This document shows positions 33,381-40,279 of a stretch of 46,671 nucleotides of DNA, in pieces. This stretch comes from an uncultured Chromatiales bacterium (GTDB lineage Bacteria > Pseudomonadota > Gammaproteobacteria > Steroidobacterales > BM003): the NCBI GenBank assembly GCA_937128475.1, contig CAKZML010000189.1, positions 1 through 46,671 on the forward strand, given 5' to 3'. The first letter of the stretch is position 1. Each line of letters starts with the position of its first letter. The translations under genes and the position numbers were made by a program. The notes under the pieces were generated by a model. That model had not been told where the DNA came from, did no database searches, and saw only the letters and a program-made list of their open reading frames with translations.

Positions 33381-34877
33381 ATGAGCGACAAAGACACGTT
33401 ATTGCCGCCCGACAGGTCGGAAGAAAATCTGGATCCGGAGGATTGGGAGGCGACCCGCGCCCTGGGCCATCGCATGTTGGATGACATGATGGACTACATG
33501 AAAACGGTAGCCGACAGGCCGGCGTGGCAGGAAATTCCGGAACAGGTTGTGGCGCGTCTGCATGAGCCTTTGCCCCTGGAGTCGGCTGACGAGTCCCTGG
33601 TTTACCAGCAGTTCAAGCGCGACGTGCTTCCTTACCCGCTGGGCAATATTCATCCCCGTTTCTGGGCCTGGGTGATCGGTACCGGAACGCCGATGGGCGT
33701 GTTGTCCGAATTACTGGCCGCCACAATGAACCCGAATATGGGAGGCGGTGTACAGGCGCCGTACCTGGTGGAAAAACAGGTGCTTGAATGGATGCGTGAG
33801 ATTTTCGAATTTCCCGAGGGTTCAAGTGGTTTGTTGGTGAGCGGTGGGTCCATGGCTAACCTGGTCGGACTTACTGTTGCCAGGCATGTCCGGGCAGGAT
33901 TTGATGTTCGCAAACAGGGATTACATGGTTCGCCAAAACCCCTGACGGTATACGGATCCACCCAAATGCATTCCTCAGTGCAGAAGGCGCTGGAGTTGAT
34001 GGGTATGGGGACCGACGGTCTCAGGCTGGTGGAAACGCGCCCGGACCACAGCATTGATGTGGAGGCGCTGGGGCGCATGCTGGAGGAAGATCGCGCCGCC
34101 GGTATGCAACCAATATGTATCGTGGGCAATGCCGGCACGGTGAACACCGGTGCGGTGGATGACCTGGATGCCCTGGCAGATATTTGCCAGGCACAAGAGT
34201 TGTGGTTTCACGTGGACGGGGCGTTCGGCGCCTGGGCCGCAATTGTTCCCGAGCGGGCCGCACAAATGCGCGGCATGAGCCGTGCGGACTCCCTGGCATT
34301 CGACCTGCACAAGTGGCTGTACATGCCCATCGAGATTGGCTGCGTGTTGGTCCGGGATAACGCGCAGCACCGGGATACCTTTTCTTTGACGCCGGCGTAT
34401 CTTGAGCAGACTGTCCGGGGCGTGGCGGCAGGCGGTAACTGGTTCAGCGACTACGGTGTGCAACTAAGCAGAAACTTCCGTGCGCTAAAGGCCTGGATGT
34501 CCCTGAAGACCTACGGCATCGAAAAATATCGCCGTCTTATCAGGCAGAACATGGAGCAGGCGGTTTACCTGGGTGATCAGGTGGAGGCGCACCCGCAATT
34601 ACAATTGATGGCTCCAGTGAGCTTGAATATCGTGGTCTTTCGCTATCGGGCGGAAGGTCTTGATGAGGTGGCGCTGGACGAGTTGAATAGGGAAATTCTC
34701 CTGCGTATCCAGGAGCGGGGAATTGCCGTGCCGTCGGGCACCAGGGTTAATGATCGTTACGTAATCAGGGTGGCCCATGTGAATCATCGAACCCGCTATT
34801 CCGACATGGACCTGCTTGTGCAGTCGGTATTGGAAATCGGTGGGGAGATTCTGGACCCCGGACAAAAGCCCGAATAA
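33381..34877 (+). CDS. Group II pyridoxal-phosphate-dependent decarboxylase
   Basis: A 498-residue fold-type I enzyme of the aromatic-L-amino-acid/glutamate decarboxylase family. NIHPRFWAWVIGTGTPMGVL and LVSGGSMANL are in the N-terminal part. GNAGTVNTGAVDDL and WFHVDGAFGAW precede the PLP-binding lysine K311 in FDLHKWLYMP. The family decarboxylates amino acids to amines; the specific substrate cannot be predicted. ATG with AGGAA upstream. The racemase gene follows 9 bp later, which suggests a shared amino-acid pathway. Confidence 0.9.
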   Translation: MSDKDTLLPPDRSEENLDPEDWEATRALGHRMLDDMMDYMKTVADRPAWQEIPEQVVARLHEPLPLESADESLVYQQFKRDVLPYPLGNIHPRFWAWVIGTGTPMGVLSELLAATMNPNMGGGVQAPYLVEKQVLEWMREIFEFPEGSSGLLVSGGSMANLVGLTVARHVRAGFDVRKQGLHGSPKPLTVYGSTQMHSSVQKALELMGMGTDGLRLVETRPDHSIDVEALGRMLEEDRAAGMQPICIVGNAGTVNTGAVDDLDALADICQAQELWFHVDGAFGAWAAIVPERAAQMRGMSRADSLAFDLHKWLYMPIEIGCVLVRDNAQHRDTFSLTPAYLEQTVRGVAAGGNWFSDYGVQLSRNFRALKAWMSLKTYGIEKYRRLIRQNMEQAVYLGDQVEAHPQLQLMAPVSLNIVVFRYRAEGLDEVALDELNREILLRIQERGIAVPSGTRVNDRYVIRVAHVNHRTRYSDMDLLVQSVLEIGGEILDPGQKPE

Positions 34878-34886
34878 AGGTTGCTG

Positions 34887-35582
34887 ATGAAACATCCAAA
34901 ACATATAGGCATCGTTGGTGTAAGCGCAGAGGGCGCCGCCCTTTGCTATCGAACCATTTGCGCCGAGGGACCGGAAATCATGGGGCGGCACATGCACCCG
35001 GATATCACCATGCACACCTTCCCCCTGGGCCGTTACATGGCACAGCTGGAAGCGGGTGGATGGGGGCCTGTGGCGGGCATGATGCTGGATTCGGCCAGGC
35101 GACTGAAGGAAGCGGGTGCCCAGTTCCTGGTGTGTCCCGATAATACGGTGCACGAAGCCCTGGATATATGCCGTGGAGATTCATCCCTGCCCTGGCTGCA
35201 CATTGCCGAGGTGGTGGTCCAGGAAGCGGTTGAGCGCGGATATCGGAAGCTGGGGATCCTGGGTACGTCCTGGTTGATGGAAGGCCTGGTATACGCCCGT
35301 CAATGTTCCGCGGTGGGGCTGCAGACGGCCATTCCGGAGCCGGAGCAACGCACACGCATTAACCAGATTATTTTTGATGAACTGGTAAACATGCGCCTGG
35401 AGGAAGACTCCCGGGCGTATTTTTCCTCGGTGATTGAATCCCTCTCCGCCGGGGGTTGTGATGCCGTCGTGCTGGGGTGTACGGAAATCCCCCTGCTGGT
35501 TGAGCAGCATGACTCTTGCTTGCCTATTCTGGATTCAACCAGGTTGCTGGCCAGGGCGGCCGTGCGTTATTCCCTCGCCTGA
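34887..35582 (+). CDS. Aspartate/glutamate-type racemase family protein
   Basis: A 231-residue member of the Asp/Glu/hydantoin racemase superfamily. The second catalytic region GCTEIPLL has the expected cysteine (about C198). The first region reads LVCPDNTVHE: the usual CNT is replaced by DNT, with the cysteine (C83) two residues earlier. This CPDNT variant seems to define a subfamily, so activity may be on another acidic amino acid or not be a two-cysteine racemisation. The ATG at 34887 follows AAAGG; a TTG two codons upstream is possible. Confidence 0.83.
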   Translation: MKHPKHIGIVGVSAEGAALCYRTICAEGPEIMGRHMHPDITMHTFPLGRYMAQLEAGGWGPVAGMMLDSARRLKEAGAQFLVCPDNTVHEALDICRGDSSLPWLHIAEVVVQEAVERGYRKLGILGTSWLMEGLVYARQCSAVGLQTAIPEPEQRTRINQIIFDELVNMRLEEDSRAYFSSVIESLSAGGCDAVVLGCTEIPLLVEQHDSCLPILDSTRLLARAAVRYSLA

Positions 35583-35641: not shown

Positions 35642-36589
35642 ATGCTCGTTTCTACCGCCCAAGTGATTGCCGGCCTCGTTCTCCTGTACTTTGGAGGTGA
35701 GGGACTGATATCCGGAGCTTCCCGCCTTGCGCTGAGAATGGGGGTTTCCTCGCTGATTGTTGGTCTGACTGTTGTCGCCTTTGGAACCAGCGCGCCCGAA
35801 CTGTTCGTTTCCCTGGGGGCGGTACTGGATGGGCTGGATGATGTGGCGGTTGGTAATGTCGTTGGATCCAATATCTGCAACATCGCCCTGATCCTGGGCC
35901 TGGCGGCTGTATCGCGGCCAATAAGAATCAATGCCCGATTGATCAAGGCGGATCTTCCGTTGCTGATAGCGGCCTCCCTGTGGCTGATCTTTATTTTGCG
36001 AGACGGTTCGGTGGCCCGTTTGGAAGGTGCGATATCCATCCTGGGTCTCCTGGCCTATGTGGCGTTCAACGCCTGGGAGGCGAATCGGGAAGACGAGCCG
36101 GTAAAAGAGGAGTTGCAGAAGGCCTCTCCCCAGCCGGGCTGGTCCCTGACCAAGGACCTGGCGTTTATCGGCCTCGGGCTTGTGGCGCTGGCAGCGGGTG
36201 CGAATTGGTTTGTCAGCGGAGCGGTGGCTATAGCAACTCTTGTCGGGCTGAGTCCGGCATTTATCGGCCTGACCATTGTCGCCATCGGAACCAGTCTTCC
36301 GGAGTTGGCTGTCACCGTGCTGGCCTCACGCCGGGGACAGGGTGACATCGCCGTGGGCAATGTGATCGGTTCCAACCTGTTTAATATCGGGGCCATAATG
36401 GGCATTACCTCAGCGGTTCACCCGGTGGAGCGCGGCGGGATCCTGTGGGCGGACATGGGCGTAATGCTGGGGTTGACCCTGGTTTTAGTGCCGATGTTGT
36501 TGCTTGGTTCTCACCTGACCCGGAACCGGGGAGCAATCCTTATCGCAAGCTATATCGCCTACATAATCTGGCGGTTGAATGTCGGCTAG
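35642..36589 (+). CDS. Calcium/sodium antiporter (YrbG/CaCA family)
   Basis: Inner-membrane K-independent Na+/Ca2+ exchanger homologue, 315 residues with about ten membrane helices. Both alpha repeats are intact: GTSAPELFVSLGAV with GNVVGSNICNI in the first half and GTSLPELAVTVLAS with GNVIGSNLFNI in the second. It is convergent with the dgcA-like gene, ending three bases before it. No functional tie to the amino-acid genes can be shown. Confidence 0.92.
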   Translation: MLVSTAQVIAGLVLLYFGGEGLISGASRLALRMGVSSLIVGLTVVAFGTSAPELFVSLGAVLDGLDDVAVGNVVGSNICNIALILGLAAVSRPIRINARLIKADLPLLIAASLWLIFILRDGSVARLEGAISILGLLAYVAFNAWEANREDEPVKEELQKASPQPGWSLTKDLAFIGLGLVALAAGANWFVSGAVAIATLVGLSPAFIGLTIVAIGTSLPELAVTVLASRRGQGDIAVGNVIGSNLFNIGAIMGITSAVHPVERGGILWADMGVMLGLTLVLVPMLLLGSHLTRNRGAILIASYIAYIIWRLNVG

Positions 36590-36592
36590 CGG

Positions 36593-37567
36593 TTAACCCC
36601 AGAGCTCCCGTTCCGGAATCTGCATCAGCGCGCCTTCGAAGCGCAGCGCTGGTTGGGCGTCACCAATTTGCCAAAGAGGCCCGTCAAGGTCTACCAGGGC
36701 TGCCTGCTGGGCAATGATCATGGCGGGGGCCATGGCCAGGGAGGAGCCCAGCATATTTCCCACCATCACCTGTTTGCCGTGGTTATTGCACCAGGCAAGA
36801 ATTTTCAGGCCATCAGTAAGGCCACCGCACTTGTCCAGCTTGATGTTGATTGCGCTATAGCAGTCGGCGACGCGCTCAAGGTCGGCGCTGCTTTGGCAGG
36901 ACTCGTCTGCACACAGGGGAACCGGATATTTGAGGCCCCGCAGGGGTTCGTCCTGACCCATGGGCAAGGGTTGTTCCAGCAGTTCGATCTTGTTGGCCGC
37001 CAGTAAATCACCCAGTTTGTCCAGTAGTTCCGGGGACCAGGAGCCATTGGCGTCTATCATGATTCGGGCATCCGGACGGGCCTTGCGAATCGCAATAATC
37101 TTGTCCCCGGTATCTTCGCTGTTGAGCTTGAGCTTCAAGTGAGGCATGTCACGGCAATCCCGGGCCTTGGAGGCCATGGCCCGGGCTTCCCCAAGGGCCA
37201 GGGTAAATACCGTGTGCACGGGCTTCATGTCCATGTTCAGCAGTTCCCAGATGCGCCGACCGGCGCGCTTGGCCTCCAGGTCCCAAAGGGCGCAGTCCAG
37301 TCCGTTTCGTGCCCCACCCGGTGGCAGTAACTCCTGGAGTTCTTTCAGGCCGGCGCCAGCTTCGATCTGCCTGCGAACGGTTTCGATGTCTGCAGTGATG
37401 GTTTGGGCGTTCTCACCCAGGTAGTCCACGCCAAGGGTTTCTGCACGGCCCAGTAGACCGTCTTTTTCCAGATGGACTGTCACCACCTTGATGGCGGTGG
37501 TTACCTCGGAAGCGGTAATGAATGGCTCCACCATTTCCCAATCTGTCGTAAAGACCTTCAAATTCAT
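36593..37567 (-). CDS. dgcA: Enolase-superfamily epimerase, DgcA / dipeptide epimerase type
   Basis: A 324-residue member of the muconate-lactonizing subgroup. Catalytic residues are in place: K145/K147 in HLKLKLN, metal ligands D172 (MIDANG), E198 (LLEQP) and D221 (CADES), and a second lysine in NIKLDKCGG (K243/K246). DLDG near residue 293 matches the substrate motif of L-Ala-D/L-Glu epimerases. Because its partner is a DUF1611 protein, the better call is N-acetyl-D-glutamate racemase (DgcA of D-glutamate catabolism), with dipeptide epimerase YcjG type as the alternative. ATG overlaps the upstream stop by four bases (ATGA). Confidence 0.82.
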   Translation of the reverse strand: MNLKVFTTDWEMVEPFITASEVTTAIKVVTVHLEKDGLLGRAETLGVDYLGENAQTITADIETVRRQIEAGAGLKELQELLPPGGARNGLDCALWDLEAKRAGRRIWELLNMDMKPVHTVFTLALGEARAMASKARDCRDMPHLKLKLNSEDTGDKIIAIRKARPDARIMIDANGSWSPELLDKLGDLLAANKIELLEQPLPMGQDEPLRGLKYPVPLCADESCQSSADLERVADCYSAINIKLDKCGGLTDGLKILAWCNNHGKQVMVGNMLGSSLAMAPAMIIAQQAALVDLDGPLWQIGDAQPALRFEGALMQIPERELWG

Positions 37568-38586
37568 GATCCGGATTCCCGCTCCAGTTCATCCAGCAGG
37601 GTCTCGACACCATCAATGATCGGGTCCACGCAGGGCAGGCCTGTGGCGGCCGTGACCTTTTCCAGGTATGCACTCCTGTTGGCGGACTCCAGGCCGGAGG
37701 TGTTCACGCTGATGCCGATGAATCGCACACCGGGATTGGTTAGTCTCGCCGCATCCAGGTAGCGCTGCATGCAGTAGCCCAGGTCGGGGATCGGATATCC
37801 GGGAAACTCGTCGATTTCTTCACGCAGGGCATCGTGGCACAAGACCATGACATCGGGTTGACTGCCGTGAATCAACCCCAGGGTTACCGCAGCGTAGGCC
37901 GGATGGAACAGCGACCCCTGGCCTTCAATCACATCCCAGTGATCAGGCTGGTTATCCGGGGACAGCATTTCTGCAGCGCCGGCCAGGAAATCGGAGACCA
38001 CGGCGTCTATGGGAATACCTTGACCGGCGATCAGCAGGCCGGTTTGGCCGGTGGCACGAAAGCTGGCGTTGGCACCTCGTTGTTCCAGGCCCCGGTGCAG
38101 TGCCAGGGCGGAATATTTTTTACCCACGCAGCAATCGGTGCCAACCATCAACATGCGTTTGCCGGTTCGACGACGCCCGTTGGCCAGGGGGATGGCTGTG
38201 GGAGGGACGCGAACGTCAACCAGTGATCGGCCATTTCGTGCTGCGGATACTCGCAGCTCGTCTACATCTTGAAGACGGGTATGCATACCGCTTACCAGGT
38301 CCAGTCCGGCATCCAGCGCCTCCAGCAGGGAGTCCAGCCAGCGAGGGTTCATGGAGCCGCCGGAGGGGGCGACGCCGATAACCAGGCTGCGTGCCCCGGC
38401 CGCTACCGCCTGTGCCGGCGTCATTTCGGGAAGCCCCAGGTCGACAGTGCAGTCCGGGTGGCGTAACTGGCCAACACACAGGTCGGGACGCCAGTCCTTC
38501 AGGCCACGGCCGGTTTTTGCATCCAGGGGATTTTTCACATCACCCAGGAATACCAGGTAAGGCGTGGATATTTTTGTCACGCTCAT
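37564..38586 (-). CDS. dgcN: DUF1611 protein, D-glutamate N-acetyltransferase DgcN type
   Basis: A 340-residue DUF1611 protein. The N-terminal Rossmann-like part has FLGDVKNPLDAKTGRGL, and a P-loop-like motif GTDCCVGKK (149-157) begins the C-terminal part. HWDVIEGQGSLFHPAYAAVTLGLI and GISVNTSGL are also family-typical. Described DgcN proteins of marine bacteria N-acetylate D-glutamate so that DgcA can racemise it. Both flanking junctions are ATGA overlaps (deacylase before, dgcA after), so the three proteins are made together. Function is inferred from family and neighbour, not from active-site proof. Confidence 0.84.
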   Translation of the reverse strand: MSVTKISTPYLVFLGDVKNPLDAKTGRGLKDWRPDLCVGQLRHPDCTVDLGLPEMTPAQAVAAGARSLVIGVAPSGGSMNPRWLDSLLEALDAGLDLVSGMHTRLQDVDELRVSAARNGRSLVDVRVPPTAIPLANGRRRTGKRMLMVGTDCCVGKKYSALALHRGLEQRGANASFRATGQTGLLIAGQGIPIDAVVSDFLAGAAEMLSPDNQPDHWDVIEGQGSLFHPAYAAVTLGLIHGSQPDVMVLCHDALREEIDEFPGYPIPDLGYCMQRYLDAARLTNPGVRFIGISVNTSGLESANRSAYLEKVTAATGLPCVDPIIDGVETLLDELERESGS

Positions 38587-40124
38587 TCGGGACTCCGCTT
38601 AATGACCTGGCCCGGGTGATTGCCGGTGACCTTTCCATCACTAAATACTGCCTGGCCGTTTACCCACACCGTGAGAATGCCACTGGACAGCAGTTCCGGT
38701 TGCTGGGGAGTGGCGTGATCGATGATGGTGTCTGGATCGAACAGCACCATGTCGGCGGCTGAGCCGGCTACCAGGGTTCCCCGGTTGGTCATGCCCATAT
38801 GCGCTGCCGCCAATCCGGTCATTTTATGCACCGCCATCTCAAGAGGCATCAGTTGATCCTCGCGAACATAGCGACCGAGGATCCTGGGATAGCTGCCCCG
38901 GGCCCGGGGGTGCAGGCTGACCAGTCCACCATCGGTACACACGTTGGTGTGGGGCCATAGCAGCAGTTGCTTGACGTCTTCAACCAGCATGCTGGTGCCG
39001 ATAATGTTATCGCCTTCACCGGTACGTTCTTCCCACTCGATGGACTCGTTCGCCACCTCCATGAAGGTGGTAACCGGATCCTTTCCGCGCAATGCAGCGA
39101 CCTCGGTTAGCTTCATGCCCACATACTCGGGATGAGGCGGGAAGTGGGTGAACCAGAGCCCCTCAGGTGGTGCGATCTCGGCCAGTGCCAATTCAACCGC
39201 TTTGCGGTCATTGGGATCCCGGCCGGGTAACAGCACCATCAGGTTGGAATGCCAGTACTCGTAGGGATAGATGTCGGCGGTGATGTCGATGCCTTCAGCC
39301 CGGGCCTGGTCAAGTCTGGCCAGGGTTTGAGGCGCCTGGCCCCAAAGTCGTTTCATGGCTAATTTGAAATGTGAAATTTGCACCGGCATACCGGTCTGGC
39401 GGCCGATCTCGATAATTTCTTCCAGTGCGTCTTCGAACCAGCGGTCCTCGCTACGCATGTGACTGATATACCGTCCGCCATACCCTGCTGCCACCTTGGC
39501 AAGAATCAATACCTCGGAGGGGTTGGAATAAATTCCGGGGTCATATTCCATGCCGGTTGCCAGTCCCAGTGCTCCGGCGGTCATATCCCGTTCCAGCATT
39601 CCCGACATGGCCTTCACTTCATCGTCATTGGCATCACGGCGAAAATCTTTACCCATCACATTGTCACGGAGCGTGTTGTGACCTGAGTAGGCGGCGATGT
39701 TGAGCGCGGTGGGTTGCTGCTCAAGCTTCTGGAAGAAGTCAGACAATGGCCAGGGTGAGGAGCCATCCTGTCCTACCACGGCCGTGGTGATCCCCTGGCT
39801 TACCGCGGGTAATGCCCCGGGCATCTCGAGCACGTCAGAGCCTGCGTGACTGTGGGTGTCGATAAATCCCGGAGCCAGTACCTTGCCGCCGGCATCTACC
39901 ACCTGTTCTCCGTCAAGGGGAGTCAACGCGCCGATTTCCTTTATCACGCCATCCTGGATTCTTACACCACCGTCAAAAGCCGGGGCACCTGTGCCGTCCA
40001 GGATTTTCGCATTGCTGATTAGCCAACTGGTGGGTGGAGTAACAGTTTCCGGTTCCTTTGAACAACCGCTTAATAAACTCAGGAGGAGGCATAGTGAAAG
40101 GATCAAAGAACACCGGGCATTCAT
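38583..40124 (-). CDS. Lipoprotein N-acyl-D-amino-acid deacylase-like amidohydrolase
   Basis: A 513-residue amidohydrolase related to D-aminoacylase. It has a lipoprotein signal: MNARCSLILSLCLLLSLLSGC, lipobox LLSG-C with C21, followed by Ser-Lys, so probably exported and anchored. The metal motif HSH (91-93), ISHMRSE, QISHFK and CTDGG are present. In classical D-aminoacylase a cysteine in GNCG is a metal ligand; here the position reads GQDG (118-121), i.e. Asp. The ATG at 40124 follows AGGAG with good spacing; 13 extra residues are possible upstream. It heads the operon with dgcN and dgcA and could release D-amino acids in the periplasm. Confidence 0.83.
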   Translation of the reverse strand: MNARCSLILSLCLLLSLLSGCSKEPETVTPPTSWLISNAKILDGTGAPAFDGGVRIQDGVIKEIGALTPLDGEQVVDAGGKVLAPGFIDTHSHAGSDVLEMPGALPAVSQGITTAVVGQDGSSPWPLSDFFQKLEQQPTALNIAAYSGHNTLRDNVMGKDFRRDANDDEVKAMSGMLERDMTAGALGLATGMEYDPGIYSNPSEVLILAKVAAGYGGRYISHMRSEDRWFEDALEEIIEIGRQTGMPVQISHFKLAMKRLWGQAPQTLARLDQARAEGIDITADIYPYEYWHSNLMVLLPGRDPNDRKAVELALAEIAPPEGLWFTHFPPHPEYVGMKLTEVAALRGKDPVTTFMEVANESIEWEERTGEGDNIIGTSMLVEDVKQLLLWPHTNVCTDGGLVSLHPRARGSYPRILGRYVREDQLMPLEMAVHKMTGLAAAHMGMTNRGTLVAGSAADMVLFDPDTIIDHATPQQPELLSSGILTVWVNGQAVFSDGKVTGNHPGQVIKRSPE

Positions 40125-40279
40125 ACGAGTACTCCTGCTTCCAGAGAGAGGTGAAAAAGCCAAGGTATCAGAAGGCGTCTACCGCGGCTAATAGTGAAAT
40201 TGCTGCGGTTTGCAAGTCCTCGCCGCCGGTGGGTAACATGAGACTGAATCCGAAATGGACGTTCCATCTGGGGCACAAA

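Follow-up and report, generated by a model that had tools for sequence, protein, structure and literature searches.

The question raised by this locus is how a D-amino acid might be freed before it is catabolized through DgcN and DgcA. In the deep sea, D-amino acids contribute importantly to the resistant pool of dissolved organic matter (PMC12363236). A DgcN-DgcA pathway of D-glutamate catabolism has been described (Yu et al. 2023, ISME J, as cited in PMC12363236) and is used in Shewanella (PMC10845958); the step that frees D-amino acids before DgcN and DgcA is not settled in the literature searched. An operon in the DNA analyzed here (the window, the whole 46,671 nucleotides of contig C189 from a 3.06 Mb assembly of an uncultured Chromatiales bacterium) is a concrete candidate. 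The original prediction had proposed a full route, in which an exported amidohydrolase releases D-amino acids that DgcN-like and DgcA-like proteins then convert. This is plausible in outline, with export, fold, DgcN and gene linkage in its favor, but the hydrolase departs from the standard D-aminoacylase and the DgcA-like protein falls under the curated cut-off.

As predicted, three open reading frames lie in a run on the reverse strand and are joined by two ATGA overlaps. The first (positions 38583 to 40124, 513 aa) encodes an exported lipoprotein with a D-aminoacylase fold, named DAA here; the second (37564 to 38586, 340 aa) encodes DgcN, of the N-acetyltransferase family DUF1611; and the third (36593 to 37567, 324 aa) encodes a DgcA-like racemase/epimerase of the enolase superfamily. 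The overlaps, of four bases each, are at 38583 to 38586 (DAA/DgcN) and 37564 to 37567 (DgcN/DgcA), and, judging from the sequence, the three genes are translationally coupled.

The predicted export of the amidohydrolase was borne out by its N-terminus. The best start of DAA is the ATG at 40124, with a TTG at 40163 upstream, and the protein read from this ATG begins MNARCSLILSLCLLLSLLSGC-SKEP, a putative lipoprotein signal peptide (residues 1-21, positions 40062 to 40124, reverse strand) with a hydrophobic N-terminus when scored, the lipobox LSGC and Ser at +2. Lipoproteins with Ser at +2 are sorted to the outer membrane, and this residue suggests that DAA resides there. The D-aminoacylase-like fold was likewise supported by modeling. 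DAA carries a Pfam Amidohydro_3 domain (101 bits), and its AlphaFold model, built from 25 relatives, has a pLDDT of 92 and best matches D-aminoacylase (1v4y/1rjq/1m7j, Z 59), OngB (9kb3, Z 58.9) and N-acyl-D-Glu deacylase (3gip, Z 57.4). About 450 residues aligned with 1m7j, 3gip and 9kb1 at Z 57-59; after these N-deacylases of D-amino acids and amino-sugar acids, the next families (allantoinase and dihydroorotase) reached only Z 34-35, a difference that favors the scavenging route set out below. DAA scored 175.7 bits on PRK09061 (NF006560), under the cut-off of 340.

In characterized members of the D-aminoacylase type, zinc is held by Cys/His/His, an Asp serves as the base, and Lys, Tyr and Arg contact the alpha-carboxylate; Arg295 of BbDam (Bordetella) binds the gamma-carboxylate of N-acetyl-D-Glu, and Phe191 of AfDam (Alcaligenes) has a role in the side-chain pocket (PMC12017989). 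The active-site positions of DAA were assigned by sequence alignment. In an ungapped alignment to 1m7j, 9g5m and 3gip, Asp120 (GQDG; codon 39765 to 39767, reverse strand) takes the place of the zinc-ligand Cys (GNCG), and it is invariant in 25/25 subfamily proteins and in 48/48 at the 98% level; the Cys of the subtype V Cys/His/His metal site is replaced in DAA and both His are kept. The His ligands H222 and H252, the base D398 and the HxH pair H91 and H93 are invariant in the subfamily, as are the putative alpha-carboxylate binders K254, Y286 and R407, which match the published description (PMC12017989), and the amide-oxygen tyrosine Y194 is nearly invariant. Two further positions bear on the side chain. 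Arg302 (codon 39219 to 39221, reverse strand), which lies in a loop, aligns in sequence with Arg295 of BbDam, and nearly every subfamily member has Arg or Lys at this position; Glu193 (codon 39546 to 39548, reverse strand) stands in place of Phe191 of AfDam and is invariant. The aligned residues place DAA in an exported subfamily that, with Asp instead of Cys as metal ligand in all its members, is not the standard D-aminoacylase, and the original assignment therefore holds for the fold but not for the standard identity.

DAA thus shares with BbDam (3gip) and AfDam (1m7j) the fold, the His ligands, the catalytic Asp, the alpha-carboxylate binders and the counterpart of Arg295, and differs from them in its export, its zinc ligand, a His-x-Lys in place of His-His-Lys and the Glu at the place of Phe191. 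OngB (9kb1) has the same fold and acetamido/carboxylate machinery, but it works in the cytoplasm, carries Cys97 and, as part of the ong cluster, has GlcNAc1A as its substrate (PMC12017989).

Export went together with the Asp ligand. In the phylum sample and the subfamily combined, a clearly hydrophobic N-terminus was found in 54/58 Asp-type proteins versus 3/18 Cys-type proteins; these counts include related, non-independent sequences, and some of the upstream stretches, though few, may be untranslated. The N-termini of the remaining four Asp-type proteins also resemble signal peptides by eye. Pseudomonadota relatives of D-aminoacylase (L153-L181) with Asp at the zinc-Cys position had signal peptides and those with Cys mostly did not, L161 being an exported Cys-type protein and the sole exception noted. 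There is also a second exported branch of the Asp type (NDG, FY/YY). Avoidance of a reactive Cys by a periplasmic enzyme could explain the association, and the question for enzymology is why exported D-aminoacylase relatives hold zinc with Asp and others with Cys. A tentative and rather doubtful extension is that the exported hydrolases, adapted to the periplasm, represent a new class of metal site within the amidohydrolase superfamily, with Asp/His/His for Cys/His/His, and that the member in this operon would release D-Glu in the periplasm from murein fragments or N-acyl-D-amino acids and feed a DgcN/DgcA branch of shifted specificity. A literature search that had the founding DgcN paper outside its scope returned no report of an exported Asp-ligand subfamily or of its coupling to dgcN; such a subfamily, coupled repeatedly to dgcN, is the most interesting aspect of the locus.

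The identification of the DUF1611 protein as DgcN was upheld by its score of 483.1 bits on the DgcN equivalog model NF041892, just above the cut-off of 480. The protein contains DUF1611_N (76 bits) and DUF1611_C (236 bits), is related to the solved structure 7xrj (E 1e-105) and conserves a P-loop-like GTDCCVGKK. The DgcA-like protein contains MR_MLE_N (37 bits) and MR_MLE_C (88 bits) and keeps the enolase catalytic lysines and metal ligands (KLKL, DAN, EQP, ADES and NIKLDK), with the KxK and KLDK lysines and the DLDGP motif conserved. Its score on the DgcA equivalog model NF042940 was 386.7 bits, narrowly under the cut-off of 400, and four further DAA-linked DgcA members scored 363-396, all below 400; a 4gfi-like DgcA (L003) reached 505 and two other DgcN-linked classes 431 and 402. 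The nearest model, the motifs and the gene's overlap with dgcN, an adjacency also seen in relatives, speak for a DgcA identity of the enolase; the cut-off does not, and the specificity loops are changed.

These loop changes set the DAA-linked DgcAs apart. The window's protein falls within a set of 19 rows with a support of 99, 16 of which are DAA-linked. Compared with the remaining DgcN-linked DgcAs, this group is distinct at T18, A19, E21, I26, D48 and Q300, among other positions; the first five sit in two loop segments capping the active site, with E21 near-invariant and D48 invariant in the group. Where YcjG and 4gfi have an arginine, the window's protein has Ser20. This 20s-loop arginine is one that we take to have a role in YcjG; a literature search on it found no paper. 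Since the loops are altered, the arginine is lost and the scores lie under the DgcA cut-off, a shift in specificity of the DAA-linked group is possible, and the true substrate may differ somewhat from N-acetyl-D-Glu. The DgcA-like protein is likely, though not certainly, an N-acetyl-D-Glu racemase, given that its divergent group scores short of the curated threshold and has altered specificity loops.

Taken together, these data are consistent with a scavenging route for a D-amino acid of the D-Glu type with periplasmic release, a reading whose chances we regard as evenly balanced; the D-amino acid is most likely D-glutamate. In the route that we infer, DAA would act as a periplasmic lipoprotein with zinc held by Asp120, His222 and His252 and with Asp398 as general base, and would cleave the amide that acylates the alpha-amine of the D-amino acid, which in nature may carry an acetyl or longer acyl group or be linked to the L-Ala of murein L-Ala-D-Glu. 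Once freed, the D-amino acid would be imported by a general symporter, N-acetylated by DgcN, racemized in its N-acetyl form by the DgcA-like enzyme and deacetylated to the L-amino acid by an enzyme encoded elsewhere in the genome. The operon resembles the known DgcN-DgcA pathway in its curated DgcN and adjoining enolase, and differs from it by adding a coupled upstream exported hydrolase and by its divergent DgcA. The route is favored by the DgcN score, the conservation of K254, Y286, R407, Y194 and D398, the alignment of R302 with the D-Glu gamma-carboxylate Arg of 3gip, and the export of subfamily members. It is weakened by a DAA metal ligand unlike that of every characterized relative and by the scores under 400 of all linked DgcAs tested; in addition, if the substrate were only N-acetyl-D-Glu, removal and re-addition of the acetyl group would be wasteful.

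The acidic residues of the DAA pocket (E193) and of the DgcA loops (E21 and D48) also misfit a purely acidic side chain, and they open a different reading of the same layout, in which DAA, DgcN and a specificity-shifted DgcA group would serve a D-amino acid of another kind. This could be cationic or zwitterionic, such as D-Lys, D-Orn, D-Arg or the D-centre of diaminopimelate. The gain of E21 and D48 in the capping segments, the invariance of E193, the absence of the 20s-loop Arg that YcjG and 4gfi-like DgcA keep, and a well-supported DgcA group core lying below the DgcA cut-off all speak for it. Against this, DgcN still passes NF041892 and R302 of DAA argues for a carboxylate, and another D-amino acid is judged unlikely.

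Linkage across genomes bears on whether the hydrolase belongs to the D-glutamate route at all. When public genomes were scanned with the DgcN protein, 32 loci were recovered, of which 31 extended far enough upstream to be assessed, and a DAA relative lay directly upstream of DgcN on the same strand in 22/31, usually followed by DgcA; this fraction is not a rate for all DgcN, because the scan favors close relatives of the operon's DgcN. Linked hosts include Halieaceae, Luminiphilus, HTCC2080 and Woeseiaceae, several of the linked relatives are marine Proteobacteria, and 4-base overlaps are often present, with both recurring in L036 and L040. Among 246 genomes of the window's order, 77 had a close DgcN and 43 a DAA relative (E < 1e-100); the two co-occurred above expectation (30/43 DAA genomes versus 77/246 overall; Fisher p 1e-8, uncorrected for shared ancestry). 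The DAA-DgcN linkage is above chance, and both this co-occurrence and the adjacency at public loci support the D-Glu route, whose candidate release step is shared with marine lineages such as Halieaceae/Luminiphilus. The linkage of the deacylase with DUF1611 that had been put forward for survey thus recurs, but it is lineage-restricted. Of 321 sampled genomes of the class, only 2 contained a close relative of DAA and 12 one of DgcN; the layout is therefore restricted, and a wide class-level linkage was rejected.

Within the order, DAA and dgcN were adjacent in the same order only in G000, G002, G153 and G210; in G169 the neighbor of dgcN is a distant DAA relative, and in G089 (L130) a DAA relative in divergent orientation adjoins distant DgcN/DgcA relatives. 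Because most DAA relatives of the order (42-61% identity) are not neighbors of dgcN but of TonB receptor, S9 peptidase, beta-lactamase-like or DUF6524 genes, and some DAA genomes are without a close DgcN, DAA has other uses. This counts against the D-Glu route and, together with the common occurrence of DgcN-DgcA without DAA at public loci, could mean that DAA acts as an exported amidohydrolase or peptidase of general function and is linked to dgcN-dgcA only incidentally in some lineages, DgcN and DgcA alone handling D-Glu. That explanation is distinctly improbable, given overlapping, order-conserved genes in hosts as distant as Halieaceae, HTCC2080 and Woeseiaceae and the loci L121/L023, L045 and L123, which keep DAA with DgcN while DgcA is not adjoining. 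At the Woeseiaceae locus (L121:3602-4630, L023:11009-12037), DAA and DgcN are followed by a peptidase S51 family gene in the place of DgcA. In one MAG contig (L052:1086-3550), DAA and DgcN both appear frame-shifted, by sequencing error or decay.

Murein dipeptide recycling, in which the enolase would be a YcjG-type L-Ala-D/L-Glu epimerase, DAA a periplasmic muropeptide/dipeptide hydrolase and DgcN a side player, had been offered as an alternative and is very unlikely, for although the protein shares with YcjG (1jpd) the enolase fold, the lysine pair and the DxD motif (DLDGP) and has PRK15129 (NF011708) as its second-best NCBIfam model, its 252.8 bits there lie far under the cut-off of 343 (compared with 386.7 of 400 for DgcA), the 20s-loop Arg is missing, and the partner genes differ, the constant one being DgcN, which has no known role in murein recycling.

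For the remaining steps of the D-Glu route, neither an importer nor a deacetylase lies beside the operon, as had been noted, and no dedicated importer recurred among the neighbors examined. Two SDF symporter genes are present elsewhere in the genome, and such symporters could import D-Glu. ArgE/ArgJ had been suggested as the deacetylase; ArgE is encoded away from the operon and scores over its cut-off, and with the symporters it favors the route, but ArgJ was rejected as the last step when it was not found in the assembly, an absence that is not certain because the assembly is rated 96% complete. An Asp/Glu racemase (34881-35582) and a PLP decarboxylase (33381-34877) do exist on the opposite strand, separated from the operon by about 1.0 and 1.7 kb, respectively; they were rejected as operon partners, since they were seen beside it in no related locus and a convergent Ca/Na antiporter gene (35642-36589) lies between the operon and the racemase. 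This racemase is the only family member over its cut-off in the assembly, and the usual MurI is therefore divergent (a weak match is on contig C107) or in a gap. The antiporter gene also adjoins DgcA in the closest relative, from the same genus (L021:2588-3154).
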